Below the pieces are notes generated by a model that worked only from the letters and a program-made list of their open reading frames with translations, had not been told where the DNA came from and made no database searches. Below, piece after piece: positions 9,457 to 46,099 of a DNA stretch of 64,000 nt; position 1 is the stretch's first letter, and the number at the start of each line of letters is the position of its first letter. The translations under genes and the position numbers were made by a program. This DNA is from Bdellovibrio sp. BCCA (GTDB taxonomy: Bacteria; Bdellovibrionota; Bdellovibrionia; Bdellovibrionales; Bdellovibrionaceae): the NCBI RefSeq assembly GCF_037996825.1, contig NZ_JBBNAC010000001.1, positions 3,472,001-3,536,000 of the forward strand. Direction: 5' to 3'.

Positions 9457-9741
9457 ATTGGTATCTCTTTCCCCAAATCTCATGATTAGACTTATCGGGA
9501 AATCGCCTTATTCCATGAGCTTACGGCGTCAAAAACTCTAGATTTTCTCATTTTGGGATCGTTTTGCGCCCGACTTAAGTGATGCGCAGCGAAGAATTGT
9601 TGGGAAAACGTTAGCTTTACGGAGTTTTCTTGCAAGCTGAGCGATCCGTGAATTAGGTTTTACGCGTGAACCCCGTATATGCTGCGAATAGGGCGCAGTG
9701 TTTCTACTAGACACCAAGAAATGTCTAACTATGGAGGATAG

Positions 9742-10602
9742 ATGAACGTTTTGATGCTTACACTGGTGGTCCTGTTTTCTGCAAACTTCGGACATGCCGC
9801 TCCCGCTTCTCAGGAAGTTCCTTACTACGGCGAGAAATTTTACAGCGACCTCGCTTCTGGAATTAGCAACAACGATTTAAAAAATAGCATCAAACTAGTT
9901 TTAAGAAGTTACCACCTTCGTGTGAATGGGGGCCTTGATCAGATAGTCAATAACTGCAGCGGATCTAATTGTTATGCGCAGACTTCGATCGGATACAACG
10001 GAGCCCGCGTTTACTTGATGGGTAAATTCTATCTTCATGACAATGGCGGCGGAAATTACTCAGTAACAGATGTCTACTGTGACAACGAAAAGACAGCCGC
10101 CGATTTCAGAGGCGGAAACGCTCCCGCTCCCAACAGAATTCCTGACAGCAACGTGATCAACGTTGAGCACACCTGGCCACAAAGCCGTTTCTCTGGCAAA
10201 TTCGATAAAGGCACTCAAAAAGCCGACCTTCATCACCTTTTCCCTACCGATTCAAAATTGAACTCTGTTCGTGGTAACAACAACTTCGGTGAAGTCGTGA
10301 AAGACACGAAAACGTTGGGTTGCCCGGCGTCTCGCTTCGGCACTCCAGACGGCGGTGGCAAAGAGATCTTTGAACCACCTCACAATCACAAAGGAAATGT
10401 CGCTCGCGCGTTGTTCTACTTCTCTTTGCGCTACGATCTTCCAATCAATGCCAGCGAAGAAGCTTTCTTACGTAAATGGGCTAAAGAAGATCCGATTGAT
10501 GACGAAGAAATCCGTCGCAACGACGACATTTACGCAACTCAAGGTAACAGAAATCCATTCGTTGATTTCCCGAACCTTCAAGACAACATCGCTGATTTCT
10601 AG
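9742..10602 (+). CDS. Secreted endonuclease I (EndA/Vvn family)
   Basis: The 286-residue protein has a signal peptide (residues 1-20, ending GHAAP) and the beta-beta-alpha metal core of endonuclease I. His143 in NVEHTWPQS is the catalytic general base. DLHHLFPTD, NSVRGNNNFGEV and FEPPHNHKGNVARA carry the other conserved residues, and GNRNPFVDFP is the family's C-terminal signature. These enzymes cut DNA and sometimes RNA without sequence specificity in the periplasm or outside. In a predator, prey nucleic acid digestion is a natural role. GGAGGATAG precedes the ATG, and a terminator follows. Confidence 0.95.
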   Translation: MNVLMLTLVVLFSANFGHAAPASQEVPYYGEKFYSDLASGISNNDLKNSIKLVLRSYHLRVNGGLDQIVNNCSGSNCYAQTSIGYNGARVYLMGKFYLHDNGGGNYSVTDVYCDNEKTAADFRGGNAPAPNRIPDSNVINVEHTWPQSRFSGKFDKGTQKADLHHLFPTDSKLNSVRGNNNFGEVVKDTKTLGCPASRFGTPDGGGKEIFEPPHNHKGNVARALFYFSLRYDLPINASEEAFLRKWAKEDPIDDEEIRRNDDIYATQGNRNPFVDFPNLQDNIADF

Positions 10603-29658: not shown

Positions 29659-30693
29659 ATGTCAATTCCCACTCAATTTATCCAAATTGATGAAGAGGGT
29701 TACGGACTGAGCCGCGAGGTTCGCATCCAAGATCCTCTTGTGGGACAAGAACTCCTGCAAAATCTAAAAATTCACGAAGGCGGAACTCTTCTTTCTACGA
29801 TCGGTACAACGCCGGTGATCGTTGAAGCCTTCGATGAACCTTACGTCGCTCAACAAATTCATTTCAAAGACGGCTCGTGGGAAATCTCTCTTCCTTACGG
29901 CGTTCATTTTGCTTTTGCTTTGGAATCTTTGTCCTTGGATGAGTGGGATCGTTTTCACGGCTACACTGCAAATAAAATTCCTTTCGTAATGTCGCGAAAA
30001 GCGCAGGCGAGTTTCTTTAATATGCTCGATGAATTCGGCGACGAGTTTATCGAGTTCCAAGGGAAAACTTACGACATCCCTCCGTACTGGCCCGACAACG
30101 AAGACGTTGAAAAAGAAACTTACTGGAGCCAAATTTACGAAACAGAACCGAATCCAGGTTGGAATTTAGGCGAACCTGCCGAAGCTTTGAAAGACATGAT
30201 TCCACGTCTGAAAATCTCGCCTTCTCGCGTACTCGTTTTAGGTTGCGGCGAAGGTCACGATGCTGCGTTTTTCGCGCAAGCTGGTCACTTTGTTACTGCC
30301 GTAGATATTTCTCCGCTCGCTTTAGAAAAAGCGCGCAAGCAATACGGTCATTTGGAAAATTTAAAATTTGTCGAAGCGGATTTGTTTAAACTCCCTCGCG
30401 ATTTTGACCAATCTTTCGATCTTGTGTTCGAGCACACGTGCTACTGCGCGATCAACCCTGCAAAACGCCAAGACCTTGTCAAAACTTGGAACCGCGTTTT
30501 AGTCAGCGGCGGCCACTTGATGGGCGTCTTCTTCACTTTCGAAAAACGCCAAGGCCCTCCTTACGGCGGCACCGAGTGGGAGCTCCGCCAACGCCTCAAA
30601 TCGGCGTACCAACCCATCTTCTGGGGACGCTGGCAAAAATCCATCCCACGCCGCCAAGGAAAAGAACTTTTCATCTACTGCAAAAAGACTTAA
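29659..30693 (+). CDS. SAM-dependent methyltransferase (TPMT-like) with N-terminal extra domain
   Basis: The 344-residue protein has a Rossmann methyltransferase domain at residues about 155-344 with motif I VLVLGCGEGHD and the acidic TAVDISPLAL. The segment WNLGEPAEAL before it and FEHTCYCAI after motif III are characteristic of the TPMT family, which methylates thiols, halides or small toxic compounds. Residues 1-150 form a separate acidic domain that I do not recognise. It starts one base after the preceding stop and ends inside the left arm of a large hairpin. Confidence 0.87.
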   Translation: MSIPTQFIQIDEEGYGLSREVRIQDPLVGQELLQNLKIHEGGTLLSTIGTTPVIVEAFDEPYVAQQIHFKDGSWEISLPYGVHFAFALESLSLDEWDRFHGYTANKIPFVMSRKAQASFFNMLDEFGDEFIEFQGKTYDIPPYWPDNEDVEKETYWSQIYETEPNPGWNLGEPAEALKDMIPRLKISPSRVLVLGCGEGHDAAFFAQAGHFVTAVDISPLALEKARKQYGHLENLKFVEADLFKLPRDFDQSFDLVFEHTCYCAINPAKRQDLVKTWNRVLVSGGHLMGVFFTFEKRQGPPYGGTEWELRQRLKSAYQPIFWGRWQKSIPRRQGKELFIYCKKT

Positions 30694-30772
30694 AAGGTGC
30701 CTGCTTCTTTTTTGGGTCTACATCGCATCATAAATGCTGCGGTGTAGACCCAAAAAAGAACCTGGCACCTTT
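30693..30772. repeat. 80-nt imperfect hairpin of the GGTGCC repeat family
   Basis: Two 35-nt arms (30693-30727 and 30738-30772) are reverse complements at 32 of 35 positions, around a 10-base loop. The outer ends read AAAGGTGCC and GGCACCTTT; the inner parts share TTCTTTTTTGGGTCTACA. The left arm starts at the last base of the methyltransferase stop codon and the right arm ends 10 bases before the GNAT start. It looks like a REPIN-like or miniature inverted-repeat element and would also terminate or attenuate transcription between the genes. Confidence 0.85.
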
Positions 30773-30782
30773 CGGAGGATTT

Positions 30783-31307
30783 ATGCATATCGAATTTACT
30801 CAAGCTGATGAAAGTCATGTTGAAGATCTTGTGGAGCTTGTGAACTCGGCTTATCGCGGAGATTCTTCGAAAGAAGGGTGGACGACCGAAGCGGATCTTC
30901 TGGATGGTCAGCGCGCTGATGCAGAAGGAATTCGTGAGATCATCAACAAAGATGATTCTGTTATTTTGATTGCTGAGGACGATGATACTGGGGACTTGCT
31001 TGGCTGCGTTCACCTCGAGAAGCAGGGAGCGAAATGTTACCTGGGAATGTTAACCGTCGACCCTGCTTTGCAAAGTCAGGGAATTGGCAAGATGTTGTTA
31101 GCAGAGTCAGAAGCCCTTGCACAATTCTGGGATTGTACTACCATTTTTATGACGGTGATTTCAGTACGTACAGAGTTGATTGCTTGGTATGAAAAGCACG
31201 GCTTCCGCAACACAGGCGAAAAGAAACCTTTCCCTTACGGCGACGAACGTTTTGGAATCCCCAAAGTAAAAAACCTAGAATTCACAGTTCTAGAAAAGAA
31301 AATCTAA
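30783..31307 (+). CDS. GNAT-family N-acetyltransferase
   Basis: The 174-residue protein has the GNAT fold with acetyl-CoA-binding motif A: LGMLTVDPALQSQGIGKMLL (residues about 81-100, ending QSQGIGKMLL). The C-terminal WYEKHGFRNTG is motif B. It should transfer an acetyl group to an amine; the substrate is unknown. CGGAGGAT precedes the ATG. The reading frame runs upstream to 30438, but that extension crosses the hairpin repeat and the methyltransferase in another frame and is not protein-like. Confidence 0.93.
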   Translation: MHIEFTQADESHVEDLVELVNSAYRGDSSKEGWTTEADLLDGQRADAEGIREIINKDDSVILIAEDDDTGDLLGCVHLEKQGAKCYLGMLTVDPALQSQGIGKMLLAESEALAQFWDCTTIFMTVISVRTELIAWYEKHGFRNTGEKKPFPYGDERFGIPKVKNLEFTVLEKKI

Positions 31308-31338
31308 AAAGTGCCCGGTTTTGAATCAGGCACCTTTT
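31306..31338. repeat. GGTGCC-type inverted repeat after the GNAT gene
   Basis: AAAAAGTGCCCGGTT and CAGGCACCTTTT are imperfect inverted arms around a short loop, starting within the GNAT stop codon. The ends match those of the 30693-30772 element. It could serve as terminator for the GNAT gene. Confidence 0.6.
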
Positions 31339-31349
31339 GAGGGGGAAGC

Positions 31350-37746: not shown

Positions 37747-37781
37747 AGGCTTTAGAGTACCACGCAAGGAAGGCGGGATCA

Positions 37782-38160
37782 CGGTTTTGCTGTAAGCCGG
37801 ATTCTGTCCTAATCACCAGGTCCCATAATTTGTCCCGATAATCTTGGATGATCATTCCTCTGGGAGTGCCATTACTGACACCCTCAAGCGATCTTACCCG
37901 AAAGCTACGGACTGGCCGTCCTACTAGTGCTTCCCTATTTGATCTTGCTCCGCGCAGAGTTTGACTGTTTTCACTCCAGCAGCTCCCCAGACCCTCCCGT
38001 TCCCGGTATCTGGCTCATAGCCCTGGACATTCTCTCTGTTTCACTGTTCCTAACGTTACCGTCGAGGGGCGTTACCCCTTGCGCTGCCATATGGAGTCCG
38101 GACTTTCCTCTCTAATATCAGGAAGTTAGAGCATTATTAGAGCGATCATCCGCAAAACCG
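37782..38160 (-). ncRNA. rnpB: RNase P RNA (bacterial type A)
   Basis: The transcribed strand contains the universal RNase P RNA segments: GAGGAAAGTCCGGACT near the 5' end (plus positions about 38095-38110), the CR regions, and GACAGAATCCGGCTTAC near the 3' end (37792-37808). The 5' CGGTTTTGC and 3' GCAAAACCG pair as helix P1 and define the ends. Length is about 379 nt. It is the catalytic RNA that matures tRNA 5' ends. The pepF start lies 36 bases downstream on the same strand, with no terminator in between, so read-through is possible. Confidence 0.95.
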
Positions 38161-38259
38161 AAGGGGATTTCTAACACCCCCCAGCAAATAGCGCAAGAAG
38201 GTTTTCTTCAATCCCATTTTATTTTACTTTCTACGTATCGTTTACAAAAGGAATTTATC

Positions 38260-46074: not shown

Positions 46075-46099
46075 AAAAAAGGTACCAGGTACCTTTTTT
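46075..46099. repeat. GGTACC-type palindrome directly after sodB
   Basis: AAAAAAGGTACC, A, GGTACCTTTTTT is a perfect 12-bp inverted repeat around one base, starting at the first base after the sodB stop. Same family as 317-338 and 2495-2517. A second, independent terminator follows at 46104-46139. Confidence 0.85.

Follow-up and report, generated by a model that had tools for sequence, protein, structure and literature searches.

How RAYTs propagate and maintain their repeats, and what makes bacteria retain the two together, is an open question. In the available text of PMC8049555, RAYTs are single-copy, vertically inherited genes whose exact function is unknown, and little evidence is reported of a benefit from REPINs. 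In a TIRtron, as far as the accessible part of PMC3733652 describes it, a RAYT-like gene is flanked by long inverted repeats that are also dispersed as single and dimer copies; that paper makes no mention of Bdellovibrio. For REPINs, the text available gives singlet-to-doublet ratios below two for 17 of 20 classes (PMC3116915). Among GTAG REPs, the GTAG motif and the single stem-loop are needed in varying degree by the TnpAREP enzymes studied (PMC8266576, available text), and the ends of these repeats often provide the TAG stop of adjoining frames (PMC3733652, same part). Effects of REPs on expression, namely ending transcription or changing the half-life of mRNA, come from work cited in PMC8049555. 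The term gene conversion describes a mixing model in what is available of PMC8049555, and in the accessible text of other REP and REPIN papers (e.g. PMC3116915, PMC8266576) it stands only within the citation of a 1988 review. Among the matches listed in a literature search that covered few subscription journals, no paper on such repeats in Bdellovibrio was found by title or start of abstract.

Structure and position of the hairpin

The hairpin reported here lies in a window of 64,000 nt (G000:C1:3472001-3536000) from a 4.01-Mb Bdellovibrio genome, designated G000, and its features are listed in Table 1. A first-pass annotation of this DNA described two 35-nt arms that match at 32 of 35 positions across a 10-nt loop and reach from a stop codon to a Shine-Dalgarno sequence, and reading the sequence confirmed this geometry, with the mismatches at arm positions 10, 12 and 31. 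The outer GGTGCC and the inner GGGTCTACA beside a T-run are present as that annotation stated. A repeat search extends the arms to 39 nt at 90% identity. The left end, at 30693, coincides with the final A of the methyltransferase TAA stop, and because the A-run of the element is inseparable from the stop codon the outer end of the hairpin is uncertain by 1-3 nt. The right end, at 30772, is directly 5' of CGGAGG (30773-30778), and the GNAT start codon is found ten bases past it.

Table 1. Coordinates of the hairpin and neighboring features, as positions in the window.
Feature	Position	Strand	Evidence
REPIN-like doublet, two inverted RAYT terminal-repeat arms, hairpin as DNA or RNA	30693..30772	.	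sequence, repeats, folds, genome copies
Left arm; outer 21 nt identical to outer arms at resident RAYT gene	30693..30727	+	sequence, genome copies
10-nt loop of the 35-nt arm pairing; two loop bases pair further in the predicted fold	30728..30737	.	
Right arm; unusual outer variant GGTGCCAGGTTC, common to orthologous slot of G019 and G001	30738..30772	-	
TAA stop of methyltransferase, overlaps left hairpin end	30691..30693	+	
Upstream gene: TPMT/TehB-like methyltransferase	29659..30693	+	profile match
Shine-Dalgarno-like GGAGG of GNAT gene, directly 3' of hairpin	30774..30778	+	by eye
Downstream gene: GNAT acetyltransferase	30783..31307	+	sequence, profile match

Folded as RNA, the 80 nt reach -53.2 kcal/mol compared with a shuffle mean of -16.3 (z -13.9), and none of 200 shuffles folded as well; the DNA fold of the same 80 nt is at -33.7 (z -12.8). 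Neither focal arm taken singly, on either strand, folds better than shuffles do (z 0.29 to 1.44). Immediately after the GNAT stop, at 31309-31341 of the window, is a short degenerate relative (AAAGTGCCCGG..CAGGCACCTTTT), the fold of which is also no better than shuffles (z -0.72).

Dispersed copies and the partner transposase

The arm is not unique in the genome, and it recurs in relatives; the first-pass annotation had named an arm unique in the genome and absent from related strains as what would refute its reading. The outer 21 nt of the left arm were detected at 19 places in G000 at no more than 3 mismatches, 15 of them exact, compared with 2 places for the reversed control. Four of the 19 copies are contained in two doublets, namely the focal hairpin and a second at 756333-756414, two lie on either side of a transposase gene as inverted copies (577872 and 578661), and the remaining 13 are solo arms. 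By a stricter pattern and manual count, the inner block is of the CTGGC kind in 11 of 16 arms and of GGGTCTAC or related kinds in 5 of 16.

There are three matches to PF01797 (Y1_Tnp) in G000, and the one at 578236-578505 sits between the two inverted arms. The protein encoded there, P0001, scores 24 bits against PF01797 (cut-off 23) and 70.6 bits against NF047646, "REP-associated tyrosine transposase", which is below the cut-off of 80, and it matches the TnpAREP chain 4er8 with an E value of 1.1e-6. Its sequence contains NHFHM and YKYVYRNP, which we take to be motifs of a Y1/HUH enzyme of the RAYT kind. Throughout the genus, PF01797 matches are present in 21 of 24 genomes (79 rows), and inverted flanking repeats were detected at 47 of the 79 above a threshold of 15.5, chosen by eye (the best score among shuffled controls was 14.5). 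A quick tree search, which gave long-branch warnings and used 78 of the 79 rows (one of less than 120 aa was dropped), groups 17 RAYTs from 16 genomes with P0001 (support 99). The RAYT is kept in many genomes of the genus, often beside a flagellin gene, and as 13 of the 17 loci in the P0001 group also hold a flagellin peptide, the gene has mostly been kept at one place.

Two further RAYT genes of G000, L023 (G000:C1:348753-349076) and L024 (400450-400659), have other inverted arms, AGGTACCTGCTTCCCTTCG.. and AGGTACGCCGTACCTTTTTGAATTGC.., respectively, and palindromes of the L024 arm kind adjoin two of the solo arms (3785315 and 2750314). Genomes G012 and G022 contain 10 and 12 PF01797 matches (RAYT loci such as L161, L165, L167 and L171); many belong to a different RAYT group, and several carry GGGTATCGGTCA near their ends.

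The focal slot in related genomes

The gap between the methyltransferase and GNAT genes was compared in the 23 genus genomes that have the orthologous pair. Classified by eye, 10 of the slots contain a full hairpin (G000, G001, G002, G006, G007, G010, G015, G016, G019 and G023), 9 are empty, 2 have solo or composite arms, and 2 have remnants. Where the slot is empty, the spacing of the genes, counted with the stop codon, is 8-32 nt, indicating that the repeat splits a tight gene pair. The C-terminal end of the methyltransferase is the same with or without the element, and hence the focal repeat did not bring the stop codon. Gains at the slot cannot be counted from a tree of the two proteins, in which G000, G007, G014, G018 and G008 are unplaced. 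The full hairpins are of at least six inner types. The right outer arm GGTGCCAGGTTC is common to G000 and G019/G001, whereas both arms have different inner blocks (GGGTCTAC in G000, GTACTTC in the other two). Together, the dispersed arm, the arms on both sides of the RAYT and the variation of the slot among relatives give good support to the suggestion of the first-pass annotation that this is a mobile miniature element of the REPIN kind.

That annotation also related the outer ends to a GGTACC family. This kinship is loose: GGTACC-type hairpins do occupy the same slot in four relatives, but it does not extend to the short GGTACC palindromes of G000, which look like a separate, terminator-like repeat. 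Two of these, of the AAAAGGTACCTGGTACCTTTT kind, are located in the window at 2496-2507 and 46086-46097. Among 58 GGTACC-palindrome rows, AAAAGGTACCTG is found at 21 genome places, and several of those viewed are near stop codons.

A very stable fold that directly follows a stop codon and precedes a ribosome site, and hairpins that vary in sequence among the 10 of 23 genomes that have one, could instead reflect an RNA element particular to the methyltransferase-GNAT pair, such as an attenuator, riboregulator or terminator, that resembles the repeats by chance. However, the same arms are found elsewhere in the genome, 9 of 23 slots are empty, no Rfam match was obtained at the hairpin, and covariation of this sort is produced by any inverted DNA repeat. 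Given the copies elsewhere, the empty slots and the lack of an Rfam match at the hairpin, we rejected a locus-specific riboregulator. Rfam matches elsewhere in the window include a purine riboswitch aptamer (RF00167, 52.7 bits) at 9653-9751 on the + strand and a class A bacterial RNase P RNA (RF00010, 219.3 bits) at 37777-38161 on the - strand. An intrinsic terminator was rejected as well, because no terminator-like site with a GC-rich stem and T-run was found at the hairpin, where the + strand reads TTT and then CGGAGG. We consider an element of this locus alone to be very improbable.

Placement at stop codons

In G000, 10 of 15 solo or left arms begin -2 to +1 nt from the stop codon of a reading frame 80 codons or longer, and none of the two right doublet arms and none of the two RAYT arms begin at such a stop. 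When doublets of the whole genus are taken, 22 of 45 end -4 to +3 nt from such a stop on one side or the other, compared with 56 of 2250 placements shifted by 16-250 nt, some of which fall inside genes, so that this contrast includes gene avoidance. Such strong placement is what would be anticipated if the RAYT of each species put its own repeats into the same preferred targets, namely stop codons and terminator edges, in which case different types would meet at one slot without any rewriting of an older copy. We return to this possibility below.

Repeat type and the resident RAYT

A pattern search found full doublets in 18 of the 24 genomes. Of 55 typed rows, 44 were used to compare doublets with RAYT arms and 11 failed a palindrome filter. 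The RAYT arms of the same genome are best or tied for 21 of the 44 doublets, compared with 4.4 on average and at most 19 in 2000 permutations, a contrast that yields no clean probability because the genomes are related. For the other 23, the arms of another genome's RAYT fit better, and the focal doublet is among these, with a fit of 23.0 to the RAYT arms of its own genome and 33.5 to those of G018/G019. Its outer 21 nt are those of the resident RAYT arms, but its inner block instead matches the RAYT arms of G018 and G019; the resident arms read CTGGCTAC where the focal copy reads GGGTCTAC. Given that the focal type is in the minority within its own genome, the focal copy is probably a left-over of an earlier RAYT type.

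Re-typing of shared sites in sister species

Sister pairs were picked for having different RAYTs. Between G001 and G019, the proteins of the methyltransferase-GNAT pair are 99.1% and 98.3% identical, compared with 72.2% for the flagellin-site RAYTs, and the DNA on the two sides of the RAYT is 95.6% and 97.6% identical as far as the arms; at the left, identity ends inside the arm, after GGTGCCTGCTTCTTTTTTG. Between G002 and G006, the RAYT is 52.2% identical and its flanks 95.1% and 95.6%. Replacement of the RAYT content at the flagellin site by a diverged version could be the result of homologous import, in which short tracts from other Bdellovibrio species bring in repeats and RAYT of another type along with flanking DNA. 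Import should leave its edges at random places, however, and here the DNA to the left and right of the RAYT stays highly similar all the way to the arms.

At 26 repeat sites shared by sister pairs, the repeats are of the same type at 16 and of different types at 10. This count leaves out L138/L408, L138/L416, L427/L342 and L399/L424, which have no element on one side, as well as second copies of a site (whichever of G006 and G023 had not been used, and L352); L382/L404 has a flank on one side only and lies on the opposite strand, and L210/L438b (14/17) went into the same-type class despite arms that look switched. At all 10 differing sites, the arm of each genome fits its own flagellin-site RAYT better, and the reverse was seen at none. 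The 16 unswitched sites speak against full rewriting; they include the focal slot of G019, which still has GTACTTC although the RAYT of that genome is of the GGGTCTAC type. This ten-out-of-ten agreement shows a turnover of repeats that is tied to the RAYT. It does not show conversion as such, since the repeats of a genome are mostly of its own RAYT type and a new insertion drawn from them would likewise give ten out of ten.

Two features of the shared sites fit poorly with the re-insertion into preferred targets considered above. The first is that outer-arm peculiarities are kept while the interior differs, as with GGTGCCAGGTTC at the focal slot of G000 and G019/G001, and at L426/L441, where both species carry the outer variant GGAGTGCC. 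The second is that the outer junctions are base-identical at several switched sites, for example L209/L330 and L210/L438. Re-insertion is a possibility to which we give roughly one chance in three. Retention of the outer variants at the focal slot and at L426/L441 while the interior changes favors conversion, and the agreement of arm types with the resident RAYTs at the differing sites suggests that the repeats were turned over in place to suit the enzyme of each genome. The 1988 review by Higgins et al. reportedly raised the evolution of REPs by gene conversion in its title.

The DNA around the switched sites also bears on import. Within 30-100 nt of the repeats, G001 and G019 are identical at 317 of 350 positions for switched sites and 594 of 626 for unswitched sites, a slightly lower similarity at the switched sites, as import would predict, but one in which L425 was paired with the wrong L438 element, lowering the values for the switched class. 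The flank scores for all pairs cover 25 rows, without L382/L404 and L249/L248 and with L212 set against both G006 and G023. For G002 versus G006/G023 the direction is opposite, with flank identity higher near switched than unswitched sites and 119 of 126 positions identical within 30 nt of the switched repeats. Switched-site flanks being slightly less alike in the one comparison and more alike in the other, long-tract import is not the cause in general, and we consider import an unlikely account of the switched sites.

Proposed mechanism

Taken as a whole, including the action proposed for the RAYT and re-typing in place, we hold it to be likely that the hairpin is a non-autonomous, REPIN-like miniature element made of two inverted RAYT terminal-repeat arms. 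By analogy with IS200/IS605-type enzymes, the RAYT would recognize the folded single strand of a doublet, cut it, and copy or move the doublet; single-strand cutting at the arms is inferred from work on TnpAREP and IS200/IS605 enzymes (PMC8266576, available text). Because only the doublet folds and single arms do no better than shuffles, what the enzyme reads would have to be the stem of the doublet or bases that are unpaired. The RAYT itself may be exchanged between its conserved outer arms, after which resident repeats would gradually change in place to the new type, either by conversion that the RAYT starts or by loss and re-insertion. The more specific proposal, that a new enzyme arriving between the conserved outer arms rewrites repeats at fixed sites to its own arm type, so that both arms of a hairpin change together while the outer ends and flanks stay, is tentative, and we rate its chances at somewhat under even. 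If it is true, REPIN-like repeats would be a standing set of editable sites and not merely a slowly copying population.

At the RNA level, a stem between the stop codon and the ribosome site could shield or attenuate the upstream message and loosen the coupling of the methyltransferase and GNAT genes, and a stem that begins at the stop codon could obstruct the ribosome as it terminates. REPs near stop codons are said to act on translation, as reportedly described by Liang et al. in 2015. We infer that any effect on expression is a side effect of position and not that of a dedicated switch.

Comparison with known systems

The hairpin is a real RAYT-linked, REPIN-like element, and the feature most worth pursuing is the re-typing of shared sites. 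The genus offers sister species with near-identical flanks, differing resident RAYTs, and shared-site repeats in both states, and sites, types and partner enzymes can be paired in Bdellovibrio. This set makes it possible to test whether a RAYT edits existing repeats, and which arm bases it reads.

Like a MITE, the element is short and non-coding with inverted ends, and an enzyme gene with the same ends is present in the genome; unlike a MITE, its partner is a single-strand Y1/HUH enzyme, for which no target duplication is expected. With the GTAG REPs that are served by TnpAREP in E. coli, Stenotrophomonas and Marinomonas (PMC8266576, available text), it has in common a related transposase, as indicated by the 4er8 match, and placement at stop codons, which the accessible part of PMC3733652 gives as a GTAG REP feature. 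However, GTAG and a single stem-loop are not general in these arms: GTAG can be read in the focal arms (GTAGACCC) and is absent from such types as GTACTTC, GCACTTC or GGGGACTTTT in relatives. A canonical GTAG REP or REPIN is ruled out, given that GTAG is not kept, single arms do not fold, and solo arms outnumber doublets (13 versus 2).

The REPIN, as described in the available text of PMC3116915, is nearest in shape, being an extragenic inverted doublet with a short spacer that forms a single-strand hairpin, with a RAYT mostly at one place. The Bdellovibrio repeats differ from it in having no conserved GTAG, non-palindromic single arms and few copies, and in that doublets are not the main form in G000. 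The picture of RAYTs as single-copy genes of vertical descent (PMC8049555, in the part available) agrees with the fixed flagellin site but is at odds with an exchange of content between the arms.

The nearest published kind is the TIRtron, or TIR repeat (PMC3733652, accessible part). As in TIRtrons and TIRYTs, long inverted repeats that are unrelated to GTAG REPs flank a RAYT-like gene. The flanking repeat is dispersed here too, as 13 solo arms and 2 doublets in addition to the 2 RAYT flanks, and the encoded protein is likewise a Y1/HUH enzyme of the RAYT kind by its PF01797 and 4er8 matches, with NF047646 below cut-off. What sets the Bdellovibrio repeats apart from the TIRtrons described in the available text of that paper is that, at sites shared between sister species, the type of the repeat follows the resident RAYT.
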